From the NCBI GenBank assembly GCA_019746975.1, contig JAIERK010000013.1, positions 1 through 64,000 on the forward strand: a stretch of 64,000 nt of DNA, given 5' to 3'. The stretch is from Candidatus Obscuribacterales bacterium (GTDB taxonomy: Bacteria > Cyanobacteriota > Vampirovibrionia > Obscuribacterales > Obscuribacteraceae). A program made the position numbers and the translations under genes. The stretch's first letter is position 1; each line of letters starts with the position of its first letter. Positions 38,104-54,485 of the stretch are shown piece by piece. The notes beneath the pieces are model-generated. The model saw nothing but the letters and a program-made list of their open reading frames with translations. It searched no databases and was not told the DNA's origin.

Positions 38104-40356
38104 TCAGCTGTCCGGCGGGAATGCTTCCTGCTCAGTGTAATGCGCGAACTCCATTTCGTCTCCATTCAAATCTAAATGGAAGTGGCTAGCGCTCGAAGAG
38201 TCGCATTGCAATAGCAACTTCGACAATGGGACCTGGATCAGTTGGCGAATCAGTCGTCGCAATGGTCTGGCACCATATGCGGGGCTATAGGCTCTCTTCG
38301 CCAAGTGAGCCTGCGCCGCGGCTGATAGAGACACCATTGCGCCTTGAGCCTGCAGGCGTTCATTCAGTTGCGAAATCTGGAGCTCGACAATTCTGCGCAA
38401 GTCCGATTCGGTAAGCGGTGAGAATACCACTATGTCGTCAATCCGATTCAGGAGCTCAGGTCTGAAGCGGCTGAGCAAAAGTTGACGCAGGCGCTCGGGA
38501 AGAGCGTCCACACCGCCAGATTGAGGCAGACTCGAAGTTGAGACGGATGTTTTTCCGTCGTCTCTAGAGCAGGTTGCCTCGGCAGGTGCAATTGAGCGGT
38601 TGTCATCCGATTGTTGCTCTGCGGCCTTATCCAGGACAAAGTCGGCTCCGATATTAGAGGTCATGATGATTATCGTATTCTTGAAGTCGACAACCCTTCC
38701 TCGTGCATCCGTCAGGTGTCCTTCGTCCAGAATTTGAAGCAAAATGTTGCCGACGTCTCGATGTGCCTTTTCCAGCTCGTCAAAAAGTATGCACGAATAA
38801 GGTTTTCTTCGCACAGATTCCGTCAATTGACCACCTTCGTCGTAGCCTATATAGCCGGGTGCTGCGCCGATCAGTCGAGAGACGGTATATCGGTCGAAGT
38901 ACTCGGACATATCGAGGCGAATGAGCGCCTGGGAGTCACCAAATACGGTATCGGCAAGAACTTTGGCAACTTCGGTTTTTCCCACACCAGTCGGACCGAG
39001 AAATAGGAAGCTGGCTAATGGCCTGGCAGGGTCGTTGATTCCTGAGCGCGCTATTCGAATAGCATCGGCGACTCGTCGGGTAGCCACAGTTTGTCCAATT
39101 ACATGTAATCCCAGAGACTGTTCCATGTTGATGAGCGCATTGGCATCCGTCTCGCCGACCTTGGAAAGGGGTATCCCGGTCCATTCGGAAAGTTGCGCCG
39201 CGACGTCTTCTGTTGTTATCTCGGCAGGAACCGAAAATTGAAAATCTTCGGAGCTGTCGAGATTGTCTTGCAATTCCTTGACGAGTGGCGCTTGCTGAGC
39301 CTCCAGATGGCTTACGGTATGAAAGTCCAGCCGGCGCTTGGCTCTCTCCAGCTCCCCGTCAAGCGCCTTGAGCTGTTGCTGCAGTATGCTTCGCCTCTGA
39401 ATCGCGGCAAGAAATTGGCGCCACCGAGTGTTCATAATCTCCGACTGTTGCCTGATCTCGAGTAGGTTTTTTTCCACGATCTTCAGGCGCTTTCTCGCGC
39501 TTGCATCGTCATCTCCACGCAACGATGCTTGTTCCAGTTCAAGTCTGGCAGTCCCTTCGATGACCTCCCGCAACTCGGAAGGCATTGAGTCTATTGCAGT
39601 CCTTCTTCTCGAAGCTGTCTCATCAATTAGATCAATTGCCTTGTCCGGCAATCTCCTGTCAGGAATGTACCTGGCAGTCAGGTTTGCCGCAGCAACCAGT
39701 GCGGAGTCTCGCACCTTCACCCCATGATGGGCTTCGAATCCTGGCCGTAGTCCTCGTAATATAGCCACGGTATCGTCCACGCCGGGCTCTTTAATTTCGA
39801 CCTTTTGAAACCGCCTGGCTAAAGCCGGATCGCGTTCTATGTATTTTGTATACTCACTAATGGTGGTGGCACCGATACATTGCACAGTTCCTCTGGCGAG
39901 ATGCGGCTTTAAGGTATTGCTAACATCCAGGGCGCTTTCGCCTGCGGCGCCTGCCCCAGACATCAGGTGCATTTCATCGATGAATAGCAAGATCTCGCCG
40001 GCCGCTTCAGTTACTTCGCGAATCAGTGTACTGAGCTTTTCTTCGAGTTGCCCTCGCATCGAGGTCCCGGCTATGAGATTGGCGAGTTCCAGCGAGAGTA
40101 TTCGTTTGCCCTTCAACCTTTCGGGCACCTCGCCATTAACTATTCGTTGAGCAAGACCTTCGACAATCGCGGTTTTCCCCACGCCGGCCTCTCCAATCAA
40201 GGCGGGGTTATTCTTCGTCCTTCTGGTTAAAATATTGATGAGTCGCGCAATCTCCTCATCCCGACCTATCACCGGCTCCAGCTTCCCTGCTGATGCCAGT
40301 TGCGTCAGATCCGTCGCGGTGGTCGATATTACTCCGACTGTCGATGTCTCTGACAT
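38104..40356 (-). CDS. ClpA/ClpB-type AAA+ ATPase lacking the N-terminal substrate domain
   Basis: About 750 residues from ATG 40356 (GAGGAG at 40361-40366). Two AAA+ modules. NBD1 has [18 protein letters not shown] and [12 protein letters not shown] short coiled-coil middle domain follows. NBD2 has [15 protein letters not shown] and [11 protein letters not shown], plus the sensor/arginine block AYGARPLRR. Unlike ClpB (about 860 residues) there is no N-terminal Clp-N repeat domain, and the middle domain is shortened. A Ser/Asp-rich insert of about 45 residues follows [17 protein letters not shown] see no ClpP-docking IGF/LGF loop, so it is more likely an unfoldase or disaggregase. It follows the LRR gene by 26 bases. 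Confidence 0.9.
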
Positions 40357-40382
40357 TACACTCCTCAACTTCCTGAGAAGTT

Positions 40383-41264
40383 CTAAGGACCGAATACATT
40401 GCAGGCTGGTATCGCGGAGCGCAATCGCTGCAACGCAATATCCGTGACCTTGTTGTCTCGAATCTCCAGGTATTCGAGATTCTTCAGTGGTTCAAGATTT
40501 GTCAGACCTTTGTCTGAGACTTTTGTCCCGCTGATGTAGAGAGTGCGTAGTTTTGCTAGACGCGAAAGCGCAGTCAAACCAGCGTCACCAACGGCGGTAT
40601 CATTGACGCAAAGAGTCTGCAAATTAGCCATGGTCGACACGAACTCCAGCCCCTGATCTGTAACTCTTGTATTTGACAGGTCCAGGTGAATCAGATTGTC
40701 GAGATTGGCCAGCTCCTCGAGTCCATTGTCCGTTATTTCGGACGGCAAGAGCAGGGTGCTTAGCTGCTTTGCATCGCGTAAGTGTACCAGACCACCATCT
40801 GTGATCTCGGTTTTTTTCAATATCAAATGTTGTAGAGATGGCAGCGATGCCAAATATCTCAGGCTCTTGTTGCTGATAGATGTATGAAGGAACCAGACAG
40901 TCGCGAGGTTCTTCATTGGTGCGAGTTTTGCGACATGGTTGTCCTCGAAGGGCACAAAGTCCAATCTCAATTCGACTGTATCTTCGAGTTGAGTGATCTC
41001 TTTGAGGACGTTGTCGGAGAATCTCACTGTCGAGAGATCGAAGGACTGGAGCTTCTTTAGAATCGGCTGAAACTCCGCCAGCATTGATTCCGAGATGTGG
41101 CCGCTGATCTGCAAACCCAATAACTTATCTTCCGCTAAAGCAGGAGCGACTTCGCCGACTGCCTCGCCAACCCACTTTCGTTGATGAGGGAATGACTTGC
41201 CGGCCAAGTACAGTCCACCTAGTGATATGCGATCTGGGAAAGTGAATTTTGTTGCGGATGTCAT
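40383..41264 (-). CDS. Leucine-rich-repeat protein
   Basis: 293 residues. From about 95 onward it has roughly eight LRR units of 23-24 residues with the pattern L-x-x-L-x-L-x-x-[TN]-x-[VI]-[ST]-D-x-G-[LV] (for example [20 protein letters not shown] and [20 protein letters not shown]). The N-terminal 90 residues are not LRR. It has no signal peptide or membrane span and is probably cytoplasmic. It is the first gene of a two-gene unit with the Clp ATPase. The same D-x-G-L type of repeat forms the C-terminus of the kinase at 48011. Confidence 0.85.
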
Positions 41265-43100: not shown

Positions 43101-44753
43101 TTACTCTGGCGGTAACCGTTGCTCTTGCACCAGGGTAAAGAGATCACTCTTGAGCGATTGGCAATCCTGATATCGCGTTGATAAACCGAGCGAGGTGCAT
43201 TTTGCTACGATCTCGTCAAGGTTGGTGCTGATCTCTGGACGCAGTCGGCGCGGACGCGCCTGGGAGATGGGCTCGGGATCTTTACCCGTGAGAAGATAAT
43301 CTAGCGTTGCCCCAAGGGCATATACATCACTTTGTGGAATGGCCTTCCCTCGGAATTGTTCTGGTGGGATGTAGGAGTGCTTCCCAACGACGGTTTTTGT
43401 CGTCTGCGCCTCGAGTTGTTGGGCAACGTTGAAGTCAATGAGTTTGAGCTTCTCGTCTTTGTCCATAATCAAATTGTCTGGCGTAAAGTCACGATGAACT
43501 ACGGAAGGCTGACGGCGGTGCAAGTATGAGAGGATATCGCACATCTGGATTGCAAGTTGTACGACCTTGTGTTCCGGCATGATACCAGAAATGGTGACCA
43601 CATCCTTCAAGGTAGTTCCTTCCGCATGTTCTAGCACCAGATAAGCGCGCTGATCTTCGACAAAGAAATCTAACAATCTGACTATATTCGGATGGCGCAG
43701 CTTTTTCCAGAGCTTGGCCTCTCTTTGAATGTTGTCGAGAACGCGTTTGCGAATATTGACTCCGGCTTGAGCAGGAAGGACAAATTCCTTGAGCACCACT
43801 TCTGGAAGCTCGCTGTTTTCTCCGCTTTCGATTGCGATTGGCAAATCGGACAAGTCGACCAGAGTCTCACCCTTCTTTCCATCCAGGCTCGCGCCGTCCG
43901 GCAGCTCGCGATGCATTGAGGCGAGGTATACCAGAGCCTGTCCTCCGGCACCTATGTGACTGATCACCTTGTATCCACCGCCGGCCAGTTCAGTCCCTGC
44001 TTCCAGTGCTGAATCTCTCTGACGGCCGGACCCATCTTGCAGTTTGTCCAACCAGAGATCGGTGTACGAGTCCTGGCGGATGTACATGTTCAGATCGTCG
44101 GCCACCTTAGGTTCGATTCTGTATGATGGCAAAAACTTTTTTAAGGCTAGTTGTAATCGCTTCCTATCGTCACTGGAGGCGATTGCGTCGACTTCAAAGC
44201 GAATCAAGGCTCGGTCACTGCTCAGCCATCCCCATGTCAGAATAGGAGCGAGTACAAAGTAAGCCAGTCGCTTTTTGAGCGGGATACCACGGGCGATGGC
44301 ATTAAATTCTATCGTTATCTCCTCGGTTTTGTTGACGGTGGTGTTGACGGTCGTGACGTGTGAGATTCTGTCCCAGCTCAGAAGCGGCGTGCTGAGTTGG
44401 TACAACAGGTGCAGCCAGTGAAATTGCAGTCCTTTGTCGCTGAGTTCAATATGCGTCGGCGCGATCAATTTCCAGGGGCCAATGCCGGTTATAGTAGACA
44501 ACGTCATATAGATTGCGGAAGCGATGAGCGAGTATCCCACCAGGGACTGTTGAAGAAATAGCATTCCTGCGCCTATTATCGCAGTCGCCAAAATAGTCAG
44601 CGATAGTATCAGCTTTGAGCCAGGTCGCTTGAGTCTTTGTCTGTTCAGTCGCTCCGGCTTGTATCTAATCCAGAATGCCGTATAGTCCTCGGCGCTCTGG
44701 CTGGTTTTTGAGAAGAAGTATCTCTTGGCTAACGATTGTTTGGAGTATGACAT
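43101..44753 (-). CDS. Membrane Ser/Thr protein kinase with DFN in place of DFG
   Basis: 550 residues. N-terminus with two TM helices, then a beta-rich domain of about 130 residues resembling a bacterial PH-like fold, a linker (SYTDLWLDKLQD), and a C-terminal kinase domain (about 265-545). Glycine loop IGAGGQALVYLA, catalytic Lys in VVLKEF, alphaC Glu in IQREAKLW, HRDFTPDN at 420-427, and the Mg motif as D440-F441-N442. The Asp that binds metal is retained; the Gly is Asn. The activation segment GKHSYIPPEQFRG is intact. The closest relative is the adjacent gene. Three bases separate them, so they are cotranscribed. Confidence 0.9.
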   Translation of the reverse strand: MSYSKQSLAKRYFFSKTSQSAEDYTAFWIRYKPERLNRQRLKRPGSKLILSLTILATAIIGAGMLFLQQSLVGYSLIASAIYMTLSTITGIGPWKLIAPTHIELSDKGLQFHWLHLLYQLSTPLLSWDRISHVTTVNTTVNKTEEITIEFNAIARGIPLKKRLAYFVLAPILTWGWLSSDRALIRFEVDAIASSDDRKRLQLALKKFLPSYRIEPKVADDLNMYIRQDSYTDLWLDKLQDGSGRQRDSALEAGTELAGGGYKVISHIGAGGQALVYLASMHRELPDGASLDGKKGETLVDLSDLPIAIESGENSELPEVVLKEFVLPAQAGVNIRKRVLDNIQREAKLWKKLRHPNIVRLLDFFVEDQRAYLVLEHAEGTTLKDVVTISGIMPEHKVVQLAIQMCDILSYLHRRQPSVVHRDFTPDNLIMDKDEKLKLIDFNVAQQLEAQTTKTVVGKHSYIPPEQFRGKAIPQSDVYALGATLDYLLTGKDPEPISQARPRRLRPEISTNLDEIVAKCTSLGLSTRYQDCQSLKSDLFTLVQEQRLPPE

Positions 44754-44756
44754 CGA

Positions 44757-46355
44757 TTAACTTTCGCCATCGCGAGCGCGAATATCGATAACGCCACCAG
44801 GACCCTGTTCCAAAAGTTGTTCTGCTGCGGCATAAAAAGTGGTGGCATCGGCGATGCGCTCTTGTAATTCTTGAGCCGTTGCGCGTGCCACCAGCTCGTC
44901 GACATCGGGTGAGATATCTGAATTGAGGCTGCGTGGGTGCGATTCTGCGAGAGCCTCCGGATCTTTTCCCGTCAGCATATAATGAAGCGTGCCGCCGAGC
45001 GAGTAGATGTCGCTCTGTGTCTGAGCCCGACCGCGAAACTGCTCTGGTGAGATGTACGCCTGTTTGCCGACCAGCGTTCCTGTAGCGGTGCCTAAGAATT
45101 CGTTGGCTGCGCCGAAGTCGATGATAACGATCTCGTCATCCTCTCTCAAGACGATGTTGTCCGGTGTGATATCTCGATGGATTACCGGCGGATTTTGACA
45201 GTGAAGATACTCCAGAATGTCGGCGATTTTCATGGAGTATGTAAGTACATCGCTTTCGTTGAATGGTCCGTTCTGTCTGACAAGCTGTCTGACTGTATGA
45301 CCTGGGACGAACTCCAGAACAAGATAGTCGCGATTGTCCTCCACGAAGTAGTCCAATACGCGAGCAATCTTCGGATGCGAAAGACGCTGTAGAATGGTGG
45401 CTTCTCTAAGGAATAGCTCTTTTGCTTTTTCTCTAGTGCTCTCAGCGAGCGTCAGTGGAAGTGTCGCCTCTTTCAGCACACGAAGCTCTTTCTCGGGTGT
45501 TTCTGCCAAGTATATGGCGGATAGACCGCCAGCGGCAATCTGCATCAAAACGCGCAAGCGCCCTGCCTTCAAGAGCTTTCCTTTCTTCAATGGCACAAAG
45601 TTGGTCGCTGAAAAATGGTCTTGCATCTCCTGCTCCCAGAGTTCCGTAAAACTTTGTGGGATTTCTTTTTCGGGATTGGCTTGCTTTCCGATGAAACGGC
45701 TGTCATCGCTATTCTCGCCCAGGCGAAATTGCGGGGAGCGGCTGAACTCTAAACACCAGGATTCGAGCGCAACGAATAAAAGCTCAGCTCCCTTTTTTGA
45801 CATGCGGTTGAGGTCGATCGTGGCATGACCACCAGATTTGAAATAGATGAACAGTTTTTTGCTATCGTCTGCCTTCTCCAGGTCGAACTCATATGCACCT
45901 TTTGCGTCGTTGAGCAGCATCGAACCAAGAAGTATGTTGGCGATGTCGGACCAGGGGCGCATGGGGCGAAACAGCATGTCGGGTTTGAACATGTACGGAA
46001 AGGTAATACCTTCGTCGCAGACTTTGATTGAGATGCGCTTAGCAATATCCCGCTCGAGAGTGATGAATGCGCAGATAACAGCAGACGCAATCACTGTTAG
46101 TGGAATTGTAATCGGCAACACATATGCAGGCATGTTGATCAGCTGACTTGCTACGATGCAGGCGATGGATGTTATCCCCATGACAAGTGCCGTGCCGGCG
46201 ACGAGATATCCGGCTCTACGGCTGAAAGGAAGGTACGGGATAATGTATGTTTTCGTGCGCAGCTCCCGCTTCTTCTCGGCTGAGCTGTTCGAGGGCTCAC
46301 GCTGTGCAGCGGCTTCCATGGTCTCCTTATTCGTCTTGATATGCGACCCGGACAT
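44757..46355 (-). CDS. Membrane Ser/Thr protein kinase with PH-like N-terminal domain
   Basis: 532 residues, paralogue of the previous kinase. Two N-terminal TM helices (GYLVAGTALVMGITSIACIV and the next), a PH-like beta domain ending with DLNRMSKKGAELLFVALESW, the shared linker SFTELWEQEMQD, then the kinase domain. Glycine loop IAAGGLSAIYLAE, Lys in RVLKEA, alphaC Glu in LREATIL, HRDITPDN at 393-400, canonical DFG at 413-415, and activation segment GKQAYISPEQFRG. The kinase lies C-terminal to the membrane segment, opposite to the common PknB order. First gene of the kinase-kinase-TPR unit. Confidence 0.92.
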   Translation of the reverse strand: MSGSHIKTNKETMEAAAQREPSNSSAEKKRELRTKTYIIPYLPFSRRAGYLVAGTALVMGITSIACIVASQLINMPAYVLPITIPLTVIASAVICAFITLERDIAKRISIKVCDEGITFPYMFKPDMLFRPMRPWSDIANILLGSMLLNDAKGAYEFDLEKADDSKKLFIYFKSGGHATIDLNRMSKKGAELLFVALESWCLEFSRSPQFRLGENSDDSRFIGKQANPEKEIPQSFTELWEQEMQDHFSATNFVPLKKGKLLKAGRLRVLMQIAAGGLSAIYLAETPEKELRVLKEATLPLTLAESTREKAKELFLREATILQRLSHPKIARVLDYFVEDNRDYLVLEFVPGHTVRQLVRQNGPFNESDVLTYSMKIADILEYLHCQNPPVIHRDITPDNIVLREDDEIVIIDFGAANEFLGTATGTLVGKQAYISPEQFRGRAQTQSDIYSLGGTLHYMLTGKDPEALAESHPRSLNSDISPDVDELVARATAQELQERIADATTFYAAAEQLLEQGPGGVIDIRARDGES

Positions 46356-46414: not shown

Positions 46415-46780
46415 TTAACTGGCGTTCCTGGTTTTTTTTCTTTCTTCGGCCTTTTCTCTAGCTTCGATAAGCTCCTTGGCATGGATCTGAGCCCATTCTT
46501 CCAGCTTGTTGAGAACAGGGACCAGTGTTTCACCCAGCGGTGTCAAGGAATACTCCACCCGCGGTGGCACTTCCGCATAAATTTTGCGCGACAGTATTCC
46601 GTCGTCTTCGAGCTCTCGGAGCTGACTTGTTAGCACTTTTTGTGTCACACCTTTTAAGGCACGCATGAGTTCGTTAAAACGCATCGTACCGCCCCTCAGT
46701 TTGCAGATTATTAAGACCTTCCATTTATCAGAAATCATGGCCATCGTCGACATGATTGGGCATTCTAGTTTCCCTGGCAT
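46415..46780 (-). CDS. HxlR/DUF24-family winged-helix regulator
   Basis: 121 residues. The HxlR fold is clear: SDKWKVLIICKLRGGTMRFNELM, then GVTQKVLTSQLRELEDDGI and PPRVEYSLTPLG. C7 in LECPIMS corresponds to the conserved N-terminal Cys that senses thiol stress in YodB/HypR-type members, so redox or electrophile sensing is plausible. ATG 46780. It is divergent from the rhodanese gene, with repeated operator-like sequences between them, and probably autoregulates and controls that gene. Confidence 0.92.
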   Translation of the reverse strand: MPGKLECPIMSTMAMISDKWKVLIICKLRGGTMRFNELMRALKGVTQKVLTSQLRELEDDGILSRKIYAEVPPRVEYSLTPLGETLVPVLNKLEEWAQIHAKELIEAREKAEERKKTRNAS

Positions 46781-46867: not shown

Positions 46868-46957
46868 TCATTCTATTCTGGAGGGCATGAAAGTTGCAAC
46901 GTCTGTAAAGGGCCGTTGCTATCGCCATTCGCTTTTTTCAGAAAAGGAGAATTAAAA

Positions 46958-47374
46958 ATGACTACCGATTTACTGACAAAACAATCTGCTAAAGCAGTTG
47001 AATACTTCGAACAAAAGCTCGCTTTCGAAATTGGACCTATCGGCCTCAAGTATGCACTTGAAGCGAAAGAATCGCTGACCATAATCGATCTTAGAACACC
47101 CGAGCTGTTCGCTAAGAGCCACGTGCCTGGTGCTATCAACGTCTCTTTTGAAGAGTTGGACAAGGCTGCAGATAAGTTCAGCAAAGACAAAACCACAGTC
47201 GTCTATTGCTACGGAATTACCTGCCATCTCGCGGCAAAAGCTGCATTGCTTCTGGCGAAGAAAGGTTTTCCAGTCAAAGAGCTTTATGGCGGATTTGACG
47301 AATACCATGCGGCTCAACTGCCCACGGAAGGAACTCATACCAAGAGCAGCTGCGGCACTTCGAGCTGCGGCTAA
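46958..47374 (+). CDS. Single-domain rhodanese-like sulfurtransferase with Cys-rich tail
   Basis: 138 residues from ATG 46958 (AAAGGAGA upstream). The rhodanese domain carries IIDLRTPELFAKSHVPGAINV and the active-site loop CYGITC, the first Cys being catalytic. Rhodaneses move sulfane sulfur between thiols and are often paired with thiol-stress regulators. The C-terminus SSCGTSSCG adds two Cys in a flexible tail, perhaps a metal or persulfide carrier. It is divergently transcribed from the HxlR regulator, and a hairpin follows it. Confidence 0.92.
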   Translation: MTTDLLTKQSAKAVEYFEQKLAFEIGPIGLKYALEAKESLTIIDLRTPELFAKSHVPGAINVSFEELDKAADKFSKDKTTVVYCYGITCHLAAKAALLLAKKGFPVKELYGGFDEYHAAQLPTEGTHTKSSCGTSSCG

Positions 47375-47446: not shown

Positions 47447-47919
47447 ATGAATTTGAGTAAAGTCGCTGCTGAGCAGAACGTTCCATCTGCAAAAGGTAAG
47501 AATTTATTCCCTTGTAAATGCAGGACGCTTTGCTGATTTGCTCCAATACGAACTGCAGAATCCGTTGAGAGATTGTAAGACTAACGGCAAACTGTTCCTG
47601 AAAGATCATCTTGGGCTCACGGGCATGCAGGTGAGTCTCAATCTTTTTCCGGCTGGTGCTTCTATGCCGTTTTATCATCAGCAGAATGAAGAACTATATA
47701 TTTTCACGCGAGGCGAGGGACAGATTCAGCTCGACAACGAAACATTCGATGTCGAGGTGCACAGTCGTTCGCATTGCACCTGCCTGTGAAAGAACTTGGA
47801 GAAACAATTTCTCCGAAGACGTTCAGTACATCGTCATTCAGGCGCGTGAGAACTCACTTGCACAGGACACCTTTGATGATGGCCTCCCAGGTGAAAGACC
47901 GGTCGTTTGGCCTGATTAG
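47447..47919 (+). pseudogene. Cupin-domain protein broken by two frameshifts
   Basis: AGGAGG precedes ATG 47447. Frame 1 encodes NLSKVAAEQNVPSAKGKNLF. The protein then continues one frame over (NAGRFADLLQYELQNPLRD, LTGMQVSLNLFPAGASMPF and YIFTRGEGQIQLDN). From about 47750 it continues in the third frame (VVRIAPACERTWRNN, YIVIQARENSLAQDTFDDG, ending RPVVWPD at 47919). Joined, it is a complete single-cupin protein of about 155 residues. Each switch is a one-base change in the same direction. The gene is broken if the sequence is right. Confidence 0.85.
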
Positions 47920-48010: not shown

Positions 48011-50608
48011 GTGAGTGCGGAATACACTGTGGAAACCTGTCGAAAGTGTGGAATGAGTCGAAGCAACTCCGGACCGGGCAGTATCACTCAGTGGATTGCC
48101 ACGTGTCATTGCAGTGAGCTTGTCATTCCGGATGACAGTATCGGAAAAGATCCGATACTACTTTGTACACTATGCAACAAACGCATCTCAATGGGACGAG
48201 TCGGAAGCCTGACGCAGTGGGTTTTTCGTAGCGATCTCTGCCGTTGCGAAAATCCTTCGCCGGTCCAGGCAACCGATGCCGAGGTGCAGAGCGCCGTCGG
48301 CACGATGATGGATGACTTGACGCTCAGTCAGGAGTTCGGTCAGGCCGTAGAAGGTCTGCTCATCGATGAAGATGTCTTTCCAATCGATCGATATAAGCCT
48401 TTGCGCGAAATTGGCAGAGGCGTCTCCGGCATCGTGTATATGTCGGTCGATCGGATGCTGAGAAAACATGTTGCAATCAAGTGTTTGCAAACGCTTAGTG
48501 CTAAGCAATTAGTGGACTTTCAGAAAGAGGCTCAGGCCACGAGTAAGCTCGATCATCCAAATATTATCAAGGTCTTTGACTTCGGTGCGACCGAAAGCGG
48601 TGCACCATATATGGTTATGGAGTATGCCGAGGGTAACAGCCTCGATCACTACATCGAGACCAATGGGGTCTTATCCGAGCCGATGGCTTTGTCTGTGTTG
48701 ATGCAGCTCGCCAGCGCGCTTGGGCATGCGCATGCCAGAGGTATCTTTCACCGCGACATAAAAGGTTCAAACCTATTGATCGTGAAAGGAAATGCTGAAG
48801 ACGATACCACTCCGGCACCACTGGAAGTGCGGGTCATAGACCTGGGCATCGCGACGCTCAAGGAGGCATTGTTCGAAACGAACAAAGGAAATACTATTGC
48901 CGGAACACCTGCATATATGTCGCCGGACCAATTCTATGGAAAGCCTTTCGACGCCAGATCTGAGGTGTATTCGGTCGGTTGTTTGTTTTTCGAGATGCTG
49001 ACCGGTCGCCCTCCTTACGTCGCGCAAGGAGCGATCGAGGTTGTCAACCTCCATGTAAATCAAGAGATTCCCCGTCTGTCCGAGGCTAACCCTGATTCCA
49101 ATTTCAGTCCGGTTGCTGACGAGATTGTTCAGCGTTGTCTTGCCAAAGAGCCCGACGAAAGATTTCAAACCATGGCAGATCTGCAGGCCTTTATTGAAGA
49201 TCCAGACTTAGCGGTTCTGGAAGCGCCGCTGTCCGACAGTCAAGCCGCGCTAACACCTGTTGCCTCGGGGCGGAGAGATCGCGTTATGCCATTGATTGCT
49301 TTTCTTGTAGCAACTGTTTTCATCATATTCGGCGGTATAGCCTACTCAATTTGGCAAAACCTTGATGCTGCAACTACTCCGACTATTGCTCTCCGTTCTG
49401 CAGGCACACCGACTTTTTCTGAGAATGAGGATGCCTTCGAGCGAGTGCTAAAGGGCGCATCACTTGGTGAAAGTCAGGCATTTAAAATTGTAAGTACTGC
49501 TCCGAACCAAGTCGTTGTGGAAGGTGCCGACACAACGTCTTCGTTTGCCAAACTCAGGTCGATCGTAGGTCTCAATGATGTTTTCCTGCGCAACAGCACC
49601 ATTAACGGGTCCATGATATCGGTTCTCAGAGACTGCAAGCTTGCAACGCTGACTATTGAACTTTGTCGGTTTAGTAATAGCGCTCTCGTCGGGTTGTCTG
49701 AACTGACGACGCTTAACCGTCTGACCATTCGCAAGACTCCTGCATTTGCCGTTGACGGCTTGAAATATCTCAAAGGGCTTTCATTGACTCGCTTGCTGAT
49801 TGAATCGATCGACCTGAGTGAAGCCTCTCTTAAATTGCTTGGCCGAATGCATACTCTCTCCGACTTAACCATTCAAAACTGCACAACATTCGACGAGCAT
49901 GGTCTGGTTTATCTTCAGAAATTACATCTTAAATCCTTGCAACTTATGGATACACCTTTTGCTGCTGACGGGTTGAGATCCATTCAGAAAATGGACTCTC
50001 TTCAAACGCTGGCTTTGACGAGCACTGATTTCGTTGAACGTCCGGGCTACAGTGAAGAAATTAAGCACACTCTGGGAGCGCAAAGGGACAACCAGACTCC
50101 GTACGATCCAGAGGCTTTCGCTGGGATTGCTTCGCTTCGGTCTCTTAGTACGCTGGCTATTGATTGCGATCGGATGGAACTTAGTCAATTTGTCGCACTG
50201 AAGAATTTTGCCGATTTGAAATCTCTATCTTTATCTATTAGGCGTCCGATGAGCGATGACAACTGGGAAGCTCTGCGTGACCTCTCGAATTTGCGCTCCC
50301 TCAAGATAATCGGGGCGATAAACGGAGATAATTTATCCAAAATTGTAAAAATGAATCGGCTTCAGACTCTCATCCTCTGTAATTCTGAGTTGACCGATAG
50401 CGATGTGAGCGAACTAGCTGATTCGAATCTCGAAACGTTGTCGATTTTGGGAGACAACACACTTTCGGACAGCGGTTTAAACTCGCTTAGTAAAATGCCG
50501 ATGTTGGCAAAACTGAGACTTCCGGAGGTCTCGTTCATTACTGCTTACGGTTTGGAAAGTTTTGTCAAACTCAAGCCTAACTGCCAGTTAGTCAAACGCG
50601 ACCTATGA
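48011..50608 (+). CDS. Ser/Thr kinase with tandem Cys motifs, membrane span and LRR domain
   Basis: 865 residues from GTG 48011 (GGGAAG upstream). N-terminus: two units of about 45 residues, each with a CxxC pair, a GS(I/L)TQW block and a later CxC pair, likely two zinc sites. Kinase domain about 130-400: IGRGVSGIVYM, Lys in VAIKCLQ, Glu in FQKEAQAT, HRDIKGSN, DLG instead of DFG in VIDLGIATL, activation segment GTPAYMSPDQF. TM helix LIAFLVATVFIIFGGIAYSIW near 440. The extracytoplasmic C-terminus (about 420 residues) is a beta/LRR domain with about ten D-x-G-L-type units. It could sense an external ligand and phosphorylate cytoplasmic targets. No near neighbour identifies the substrate. Confidence 0.92.
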   Translation: MSAEYTVETCRKCGMSRSNSGPGSITQWIATCHCSELVIPDDSIGKDPILLCTLCNKRISMGRVGSLTQWVFRSDLCRCENPSPVQATDAEVQSAVGTMMDDLTLSQEFGQAVEGLLIDEDVFPIDRYKPLREIGRGVSGIVYMSVDRMLRKHVAIKCLQTLSAKQLVDFQKEAQATSKLDHPNIIKVFDFGATESGAPYMVMEYAEGNSLDHYIETNGVLSEPMALSVLMQLASALGHAHARGIFHRDIKGSNLLIVKGNAEDDTTPAPLEVRVIDLGIATLKEALFETNKGNTIAGTPAYMSPDQFYGKPFDARSEVYSVGCLFFEMLTGRPPYVAQGAIEVVNLHVNQEIPRLSEANPDSNFSPVADEIVQRCLAKEPDERFQTMADLQAFIEDPDLAVLEAPLSDSQAALTPVASGRRDRVMPLIAFLVATVFIIFGGIAYSIWQNLDAATTPTIALRSAGTPTFSENEDAFERVLKGASLGESQAFKIVSTAPNQVVVEGADTTSSFAKLRSIVGLNDVFLRNSTINGSMISVLRDCKLATLTIELCRFSNSALVGLSELTTLNRLTIRKTPAFAVDGLKYLKGLSLTRLLIESIDLSEASLKLLGRMHTLSDLTIQNCTTFDEHGLVYLQKLHLKSLQLMDTPFAADGLRSIQKMDSLQTLALTSTDFVERPGYSEEIKHTLGAQRDNQTPYDPEAFAGIASLRSLSTLAIDCDRMELSQFVALKNFADLKSLSLSIRRPMSDDNWEALRDLSNLRSLKIIGAINGDNLSKIVKMNRLQTLILCNSELTDSDVSELADSNLETLSILGDNTLSDSGLNSLSKMPMLAKLRLPEVSFITAYGLESFVKLKPNCQLVKRDL

Positions 50609-52526: not shown

Positions 52527-52745
52527 ATGGGAAAAGTTCTCATCGTAGACCGTCGAAAGTCTTCTCGACACTGTAGCCAATTGGCTCACGTACAAATATT
52601 GGAGAAAAGACCTGCGCACTTCCGTGTCGGCGGTTTTATACAGTCGTCTCGTGTTGGTCCCAACGGCTTTAGCGCGTACTCAGGCTTGAGCCGACACACA
52701 TCCGCCAGATTGATCTGTTTTGCTCTAAGCCATCAAACCGCTGCG
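52527..52745 (+). pseudogene. Probable remnant of a low-molecular-weight arsenate reductase (ArsC)
   Basis: The frame from ATG 52527 reads GKVLIVDRRKSSRHCSQLAH, then RPAHFRVGGFIQSSRVGPNG and LSRHTSARLICF. This lines up with thioredoxin-type ArsC (VLFVCxxNSCRSQMAEA, FRVxSAGxxPSRVNPNA, DISGHTSxxID). The catalytic P-loop Cys is lost: the motif is scrambled by small insertions and deletions, and the rest of the enzyme is missing where it runs into metG. The remainder of the 528-base gap (52205-52526) has no gene or RNA I can name. Confidence 0.5.
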
Positions 52746-54292
52746 CTAACCGCGTCTTCCGCTGCCAACTCTAGACGTTTGAATACAGGGCCCGTTTGAT
52801 TGATCTTCATGCCTGGACGAATCATATCGAAGAAATCGTCGTCTTTCTTGTCGCCGATCACGCCGACGTCGTCGGTGTAGCCGAGTTGGTGCCAGATGTC
52901 GTTGGCTAGTTGTGGGGTAAACGGATAAAGATTCATGGCTATGCGACGAAGTACCTCGAGGCAGGTAAATAGCACTTCTTCGCCTTCTTTTCTCTTCTCT
53001 TGTTTGAACAGAGCCCACGGTTTTTCGTCGTTGAAATACTTGTTGGCTTGATCGGACAACGCAAAAATCGCTTCCAGAGCCTTTGCAAACTCGAGAGCTT
53101 CCATATGTTTTTGCACAACCACATGAATCTCGTTTGCCTGACTGCGTAACGTGTGCTCTGGATCGCAGTTGGGGACGACCGCTCCGCAATGATCCGTGAC
53201 TAATTTGAGAACTCGATTGAGCAGGTTGCCCAGGTTGTTTGCCAATTCGGCGTTGACTTTCTCGATGAAGTCCTTGAGAGAAAAGTCACCGTCATTGTCG
53301 AATGGAGTGCCTGCAAACAGATAGAATCGCACGGCATCAGCACCGTAATTGTTGACCAATGAGATTGGATCTATCACATTGCCTAACGATTTGCTTAATT
53401 TCTGTCCGTTGACAGTGATAAAACCGTGAGCAAAAACTTGTCTGGGCACTTCAATATCCGCAGCCATTAATAGTGCTGGCCAGAATATCGAGTGAAACTT
53501 ATTGATGTCCTTGCCGATGAGATGCAGGTCTGCTGGCCAATAGCGCGCGAACCTTTCCGGATCGTGCGGGTAACCTGCGCCCGTGATGTAGTTGGAGAGG
53601 GCGTCAATCCAGACGTAAATTACTTGATCTTCTTTCCCGGGAACCGGAATGCCCCAGGTCAACGACTTTCTCGATCGTGTGACGCTGAAGTCGGCGAGCT
53701 CGGGATCGACCAGCTGATTGAGGATCTCCTTTTTTCGACCCTCTGGTCTAACCGCGTTGGGGTGCGTGTCGAGCCAGGTTCGAATTCTATCTTTGTACTT
53801 GGTGAGGCGGAAGAAATAGTTTTCTTCTTCGAGTTTTTTCGGTGGACGCTTGTGGTTGGGGCAATTGCCGCTATCGTCGAGATCTCGCTCTCTGACGAAG
53901 TCTTCGCATCCCTCGCAGTACAGTCCGGTATACGTGCCTTTGTAGATGTCACCCTTTTCCAGCAGTTTCAAAAATAAAGTTTGAACTGCTTTTTCGTGAT
54001 AATCATCGGTGGTGCGGATGAAATGATCGTAGGAGAGATTGAGCTTTTCCCACGCAGTTTTGAACTTGTCGGCCATCTCATCGCAAAATTCTTTCGGCGA
54101 CTTTCCGGCGTCCTGAGCCGATTTCTCGACCTTGCTGCCATGCTCGTCCACACCGGTCATGAAGAAAACGTCTTTTCCCCGCATGCGGTAATAACGCGCG
54201 ACGATATCGGCGGCTATCTTTTCGTAAGCGTGGCCTATATGGGGGGTGGCGTTGACGTAGTCGATCGCCGTGGTGACGTAAAACTTTTCCAT
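52733..54292 (-). CDS. metG: Methionyl-tRNA synthetase
   Basis: 519 residues from ATG 54292 (GAGGAAGAG upstream); a longer frame to 54364 lacks similarity. Charges tRNA-Met. HIGH is exact at 18-21, the KMSKS loop is KLSKS (in GQKLSKSLGN), and the metal-binding knuckle CEGCEDFV with CPNH is present. The anticodon-binding helices follow. The C-terminal tRNA-binding (EMAP-like) appendage is absent, so it is the short type. It converges with the arsC-like remnant, overlapping it by about 13 bases. Confidence 0.96.
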   Translation of the reverse strand: MEKFYVTTAIDYVNATPHIGHAYEKIAADIVARYYRMRGKDVFFMTGVDEHGSKVEKSAQDAGKSPKEFCDEMADKFKTAWEKLNLSYDHFIRTTDDYHEKAVQTLFLKLLEKGDIYKGTYTGLYCEGCEDFVRERDLDDSGNCPNHKRPPKKLEEENYFFRLTKYKDRIRTWLDTHPNAVRPEGRKKEILNQLVDPELADFSVTRSRKSLTWGIPVPGKEDQVIYVWIDALSNYITGAGYPHDPERFARYWPADLHLIGKDINKFHSIFWPALLMAADIEVPRQVFAHGFITVNGQKLSKSLGNVIDPISLVNNYGADAVRFYLFAGTPFDNDGDFSLKDFIEKVNAELANNLGNLLNRVLKLVTDHCGAVVPNCDPEHTLRSQANEIHVVVQKHMEALEFAKALEAIFALSDQANKYFNDEKPWALFKQEKRKEGEEVLFTCLEVLRRIAMNLYPFTPQLANDIWHQLGYTDDVGVIGDKKDDDFFDMIRPGMKINQTGPVFKRLELAAEDAVSAAV

Positions 54293-54485
54293 CTCTCTTC
54301 CTCTAAATTCGCGTAATCGAGCGCCCTTGGCTGATACGAGCAATCGATCCCATAGTCCGAGCAAAAGTTAACTTATGAAACCGAGATCCAGTCCCAAAAA
54401 TTACACACTTGATTACTTCATGTGTGTAGCTAATTAGTGCAAGTAGAATCATAATAATACAGGGAAAGCTGCGCTCGAGGTGGTT

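Follow-up and report, generated by a model that had tools for sequence, protein, structure and literature searches.

The window analysed in this study is a 64,000-nucleotide stretch of contig JAIERK010000013.1 from a Candidatus Obscuribacterales bacterium, whose genome (G000) comprises 7.55 Mb in 263 contigs. The gene under study encodes a predicted receptor-type protein kinase with a paired Cys module at its N-terminus, and its start codon is a GTG immediately 3′ of an in-frame TGA. The features of the locus are listed in Table 1.

Table 1. Features of the module kinase gene and its flanks (window positions).
Feature	Position	Strand	Remarks
Module kinase gene	48011..50608	+	double Cys unit - Ser/Thr kinase - TM - LRR (predicted); 865 aa
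Cys unit 1	48038..48112	+	aa 10-34: CRKC, GSITQW, CHC; unit HMM 38.7 bits
Cys unit 2	48164..48247	+	aa 52-79: CTLC, GSLTQW, CRC; unit HMM 56.7 bits
Hanks-type protein kinase domain (predicted)	48392..49174	+	aa 128-388; HRD kept, DLG replaces DFG
Single transmembrane (TM) helix (predicted)	49283..49339	+	aa ~425-443; RRDR at kinase side; hydropathy 2.58
LRR ectodomain	49487..50605	+	aa ~493-865; predicted extracytoplasmic solenoid
HxlR regulator, flanking	46415..46780	-	87% identity at syntenic locus
Rhodanese-like protein, flanking	46943..47374	+	80% identity at syntenic locus
Methionyl-tRNA synthetase, flanking	52733..54364	-	84% identity at syntenic locus

The first-pass annotation had described two tandem CxxC-GS(I/L)TQW-CxC units followed by a kinase, a TM helix, and leucine-rich repeats (LRRs). 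Both units were found, with their eight Cys residues at positions 10, 13, 32, and 34 and 52, 55, 77, and 79. A unit regular expression matched the six-frame translation of the whole window twice, both times inside this gene, and when the first 100 residues of the ORF were shuffled 200,000 times, one shuffle contained a unit. Pfam matches and hydropathy confirmed the domain order. The Pkinase match (E = 1.2e-49) scored 169.5 bits against a cut-off of 31.7, and the predicted active-site motifs are VAIK at 154, HRDIKGSN, and DLG. With a catalytic Lys, HRD, and an Asp of the DFG type, the protein is predicted to be a Hanks-type Ser/Thr kinase. The net charge around the TM helix is +2 at the kinase side and −1 at the LRR side. 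Because the kinase must be cytosolic, the module should be cytosolic too and the LRR outside. The predicted topology is that of a receptor, with one TM helix between a cytosolic kinase and an outer sensor.

The LRR_14 profile matched residues 610–839 with 47.2 bits (cut-off 40). The AlphaFold2 model of residues 448–865, built with 20 relatives, had a pLDDT of 77.6 and a pTM of 0.77, and its strands and helices alternate from about residue 493. Foldseek gave 436 PDB chains at E ≤ 0.001, of which internalin A, a Legionella LRR protein, and an FBXL2 complex ranked at the top and ribonuclease inhibitor fourth. The likeness to internalin A (E = 4.1e-10) and ribonuclease inhibitor (E = 5.4e-9) lies in the predicted solenoid at 16–20% identity, and is one of fold only that does not imply a common function. 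The profile score over the cut-off and the modelled solenoid point to an LRR protein. Charge bias and structure prediction place the LRR part across the membrane from the kinase, in agreement with the exterior LRR proposed earlier. The repeat style was also said to be common with a separate LRR gene at 40383, and that gene is 27% identical to the ectodomain (E = 9e-9). On the minus strand of the window (38104–41264), a ClpA/B-like AAA protein adjoins a short LRR protein with repeats like those of the kinase ectodomain.

Twenty regions were fetched from each of G000, G001 (same genus as the window), and G002. After removal of 9 duplicate loci, ORFs shorter than 400 aa, and ORFs without a match to the HRD regular expression, 65 module kinases remained, including that of the window and two loci from a species-wide pattern scan. 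Nearly all of them have the order unit(s), kinase, one TM helix, and C-terminal part. The exception L113 carries the module between kinase and TM helix. A unit precedes the post-kinase TM helix in all 65, and every module copy is predicted to be on the cytosolic side. The C-terminal parts, apart from two very short ones, matched LRR_14 (33/63), LRR_4 (30/63), TPR_2 (11/63), and Sel1 (3/63) at E ≤ 0.001, in overlapping sets. Dozens of module paralogues stand before kinases with LRR, TPR, or Sel1 ectodomains in each genome. The DLG noted in the first-pass annotation is real and private to the window copy: the third kinase motif reads DFG in 61 of the 65, DLG in 1, and DFA in 1, with 2 left unresolved by the regular expression, and the syntenic orthologue has DFG. 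A special mechanism based on DLG was rejected. Standalone module proteins were also rejected as a separate class, since most of them are truncated or frameshifted; L153:3290-4735 (G002) is the only clean example that lacks a kinase, and has a double module before a TM helix, a PDZ domain, and a weak TPR match.

The paired Cys module is a real and previously undescribed domain. Conservation was counted in 63 double modules, which are the 64 extracted minus the degenerate L160; L116, in which one unit was detected, was never included. Cys occupies its eight columns in 62, 63, 62, 63, 63, 63, 63, and 63 rows (one miss is a gap in the truncated L114), the Thr of TQW is present in 63/63 rows in both units, Q in 59 and 63, and W in 56 and 53 (units 1 and 2), and these figures lean upward because the rows were chosen by a profile that rewards the same residues. 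Across 29 more varied units, the four Cys are the only invariant positions, and other kinases and genera have TSW, TAW, TNW, TGW, TSF, or TSY in place of TQW. L116:3389-4675 and L160:675-1952 encode kinases of about 430 aa with a degenerate module that keeps the Cys and has lost the TQW of unit 2. The TM helix of L160 lies about 6 residues before the C-terminus, with no ectodomain after it.

The window module had no Pfam match at E ≤ 5. Three other modules were scanned singly against Pfam; two had sub-cut-off ribbon matches and one had none. Weak matches to Zn_ribbon_3 (19/63) and Zn_Ribbon_1 (15/63) occur among the modules, with a best E of 1.1e-4, and the inspected matches remained below the cut-offs (19.9 vs 25 bits). 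The first-pass annotation had not recognised the module, and in the members examined no Pfam family, known zinc ribbons included, scored above its cut-off; on this scoring the window module appears to lie outside the Pfam zinc ribbons. Zn_ribbon_3, Zn_Ribbon_1, and DZR share the CxxC(G) knuckle with it, but its second pair is a CxC after the GSxTQW stretch. Among 57 unit-less kinase ORFs of G000, 7 have an ordinary CxxC...Cxx(C/D/H) ribbon at the same place and 3 match CxxC...CxC, with L162 in both sets. In a profile comparison with the ordinary ribbons of these sister kinases, the first CxxC knuckle alone aligned, with a probability of 31–34%. The AlphaFold2 model of the module (63 rows; pLDDT 73, pTM 0.42) has a short helix at each TQW. 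A known solved fold was rejected both by sequence (best E 0.57) and by structure, as Foldseek matched none with this model, although a match of so small a domain from a weak model is easily missed. Neither GSLTQW/GSITQW nor a zinc ribbon combined with a Hanks-type kinase was found in the literature searched. Structural disulphides are unlikely at a cytosolic location, so zinc is the simplest guess for the Cys. The predicted location and the Cys as sole invariant residues favour a metal site.

The distribution of the module was determined in the order and class using a 29-row single-unit profile. This search with the Cys units, proposed in the first-pass annotation, matched 36 of 53 genomes of the order at E ≤ 0.001, of which 34 belong to the family of the window and 2 are among the three genomes of a second family. 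The 17 genomes without a match include the large G319, G320, G326, and G327. In the class sample, 37 of 240 genomes matched at E ≤ 0.01; the window's family accounts for 34 of them and the second family for 2, and the last lies outside both and has a marginal E of 0.0027. The phylum sample gave one match in 292, the window's own genome. Since other members of the order were apparently scarce or absent in that draw, the result is informative only for the remainder of the phylum. One genome from each of 84,980 species was also scanned with a strict peptide pattern, which gave 40 stretches and 13 relatives; because the pattern was strict, looser forms of the unit may occur elsewhere. All of these are accounted for by the genomes treated here. 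The closest named relative of the module is in the Candidatus Obscuribacter MAG isolate MP9P1 103 (L049; 68% identity). Four of the 13 loci (L050, L054, L057, and L061) carry the NCBI title 'Proteobacteria bacterium Centralia_MAG_505', which is probably a mislabelled Obscuribacterales MAG, as its ORF sizes and spacing match G009. The module kinase family is so far restricted to Obscuribacterales in the collections searched.

There are 46 units in the window's own genome, 58 in G001, 48 in G002, and 94 in G009 (same family). A lone exotic gene was rejected, the first search of the own genome having given 31 matches at E ≤ 10. A horizontal or mobile origin was rejected too: a search of 72,556 plasmid and 50,697 phage records came back empty, and viral contigs gave 11 pattern stretches and no relatives. 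No Melainabacteria with a protein kinase and leucine-rich repeats were found in the literature searched. For bacterial LRR and Hanks-type kinases, that literature gave papers listed as insect and potato transcriptomes, and broader searches of it gave nothing on point.

A tree was built from 81 kinase domains found in the window's genome (15 double-unit, 10 single-unit, and 56 without a unit), in which the best 150 of 217 candidate places had been scored; the unit-less kinases were taken from among those that Pfam ranked higher and are not a random sample. The labels of L105:9322, L110:1168, and L116 were set by hand, both L181 kinases, which have a Cys-pair N-terminus, were labelled as unit-less, and the bootstrap is incompletely settled. 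One clade (99/98) holds 14 of the 15 double-unit kinases together with two unit-less ones, and L113 falls outside it. L194:167-2335 and L182:3779-6406 lie in this clade without a module and keep their LRR ectodomains; the module is therefore not needed by every member. Single units require 8 changes on the tree, at least 4 of them forced by starred branches. The tree thus indicates that the double form expanded mainly as one lineage duplicated, whereas single units moved from kinase to kinase. Broken copies in the own genome have an in-frame TGA (L105 copy), a TAG (L012), or a frameshift (L110; possibly an assembly error), and the kinases of L104, L109, and L114 are cut short. The 1373-aa product of L105:583-4701 combines a single Cys unit with a tandem pair of kinase domains, each of which has close relatives in the double kinase L198.

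Different parts of these proteins change at different rates. At the syntenic locus of G001, the flanking genes are highly similar (Table 1; next gene, 87%), and the module kinase is 36% identical over the whole alignment. By domain, the identity is 61% for unit 1, 83% for unit 2, 27% for the linker, 54% for the kinase, and 28% for the ectodomain. Among ten pairs examined for synteny, two more are clearly syntenic: L104/L123, with well-conserved flanks of 68–87%, two more matches near 31–35%, and a module kinase at 48%, and L106/L132, with flanks of 66–93% and a module kinase at 41%. L102/L142 have some neighbours in common, and the other six pairs little or no common flank. For 20 reciprocal-best pairs drawn from 52 double-unit kinases with ectodomains, the median identities were 54% (unit 1), 64% (unit 2), 57% (kinase), and 28% (ectodomain). 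The kinase exceeded the ectodomain in all 20 pairs. Unit 2 exceeded the kinase in 15 and was no more conserved than it in 5; in the L115 pairs the kinase is better conserved than the units. Synonymous sites have probably reached saturation over such distances. The family of module kinases is large and fast-diversifying in the order.

Among the closest known arrangements is that of the PknB/PASTA receptor kinases, which also have a cytosolic kinase, one TM helix, and an extracytoplasmic C-terminal sensor. The window kinase aligns with PknB_PASTA_kin over residues 126–399, but with 242.8 bits against a cut-off of 450 and in the kinase part only, and the Pfam scan found no PASTA repeats. On these sequence comparisons the protein appears to fall outside the PknB/PASTA kinases, from which it differs by LRRs outside (TPR or Sel1 in relatives) and by the N-terminal Cys module.

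We lean towards reading the protein as an inside-out receptor Ser/Thr kinase, in which variable outer repeats sense ligands and a conserved, probably zinc-binding module serves as a cytosolic adaptor or dimerisation plug. The N-terminus and kinase would be cytosolic, one helix would cross the membrane, and an LRR solenoid of about fourteen repeats would lie outside. Binding of a ligand or partner to the LRR may be signalled through the helix, probably by altered dimerisation, and turn the kinase on. Each Cys unit may fold round a single metal ion, for which CxxC and CxC would be the ligands and zinc the likeliest candidate; GS(I/L)TQW would be a short, presumably capped helix between the Cys pairs. 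Together the two units could make up a small, rigid adaptor that serves dimerisation or the docking of a family-wide partner. We infer the metal, dimerisation, docking, and ligand sensing from the pattern described above: variable outer repeats joined to a slow, portable cytosolic Cys module are in keeping with a common inner plug in a receptor family.

The Cys pairs might instead act as a redox switch, in which oxidation (joining of Cys or release of zinc) toggles the kinase. A redox-controlled kinase with a Cys-rich N-terminus, Synechocystis SpkB of the wider cyanobacterial phylum, has already been reported; its activity is stated to be redox-modulated, with the Cys-rich N-terminal extension as the thioredoxin target (PMC10651672). 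Cytosolic CxxC pairs are chemically suitable, and sister kinases of the same genome also begin with Cys pairs (7/57 unit-less kinase ORFs). However, all four Cys and T, Q, and W are constant in both units, which looks like a folded metal site and unlike a switch pair. A separate periplasmic LRR is already available as a sensor, and the unit is also found without a kinase. The likeness to SpkB is one of reported architecture. We regard a redox switch as unlikely. The earlier suggestion that a zinc- or redox-gated kinase with an LRR exterior would be novel in bacteria stands in part: the module has no Pfam match above the cut-off in the members examined, but SpkB offers a redox precedent (PMC10651672) and dozens of paralogues leave no singular gene.

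Another reading, in which gene duplication has simply passed on a divergent but ordinary zinc ribbon that has no particular role, seems quite improbable. The weak Zn_ribbon_3 and Zn_Ribbon_1 matches, the ordinary ribbons that sister kinases carry at this position, and the loss of the module in some clade members would suit such a ribbon. But the inspected matches are below the cut-off, the window module has none, and its unit 2 is conserved like the housekeeping neighbours; as the rest of the window protein diverges, this conservation is not drift. Very unlikely, finally, is an autophosphorylation site at the invariant Thr of GSxTQW that recruits a phospho-reader while the Cys merely hold the loop, for although this Thr is steadier than Trp and the unit nearly always travels with a kinase (except in L153 and truncated copies), in the model the stretch forms a short helix, in which S-x-x-Q would presumably be an ordinary helix cap, the decayed L116 and L160 keep the Cys and lose the TQW of unit 2, and L153 has a module without a kinase.

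Returning to the proposed inside-out receptor with a zinc plug, plant LRR receptor-like kinases offer a comparison, with LRR outside, one TM helix, and kinase inside. They form large families with fast-changing ectodomains. The predicted order of the window protein is not the plant-type LRR - TM - kinase but its reverse, with the kinase N-terminal and the LRR C-terminal, and no common descent is claimed. It is conceivable, albeit doubtful, that the receptor kinases of Obscuribacterales are a bacterial equivalent of the repertoires of plants: in each genome, dozens of inside-out kinases would connect through a shared, slow Cys plug to one downstream partner, while LRR, TPR, or Sel1 ectodomains diversify and genes are born and lost quickly, tracking changing biotic partners (rivals, prey, hosts, or kin). 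The fast change of the ectodomains could also reflect relaxed constraint instead of ligand tracking. The domain, for which there is no Pfam model, marks a large signalling expansion in a non-photosynthetic sister lineage of the cyanobacteria. Should the module prove to be a docking plug common to the family, a single interaction screen using one small domain would reveal the output of the entire set of receptors. Ligand tracking by the outer repeats would mean that a function like that of plant receptor kinases evolved independently in bacteria.

Two further observations were made upstream of the gene. A cupin-like gene (47538–47919, plus strand; Cupin_2 E = 0.0046, below the cut-off) has an apparent frameshift near 47780, and no counterpart was found at the syntenic G001 locus. 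Two tandem divergent kinases (43101–44753 and 44757–46355, minus strand) are sisters on a very long branch. Their Pkinase match begins at profile position 35–39, as if there were an N-lobe insertion, and both are syntenic in G001 with 64% identity each.
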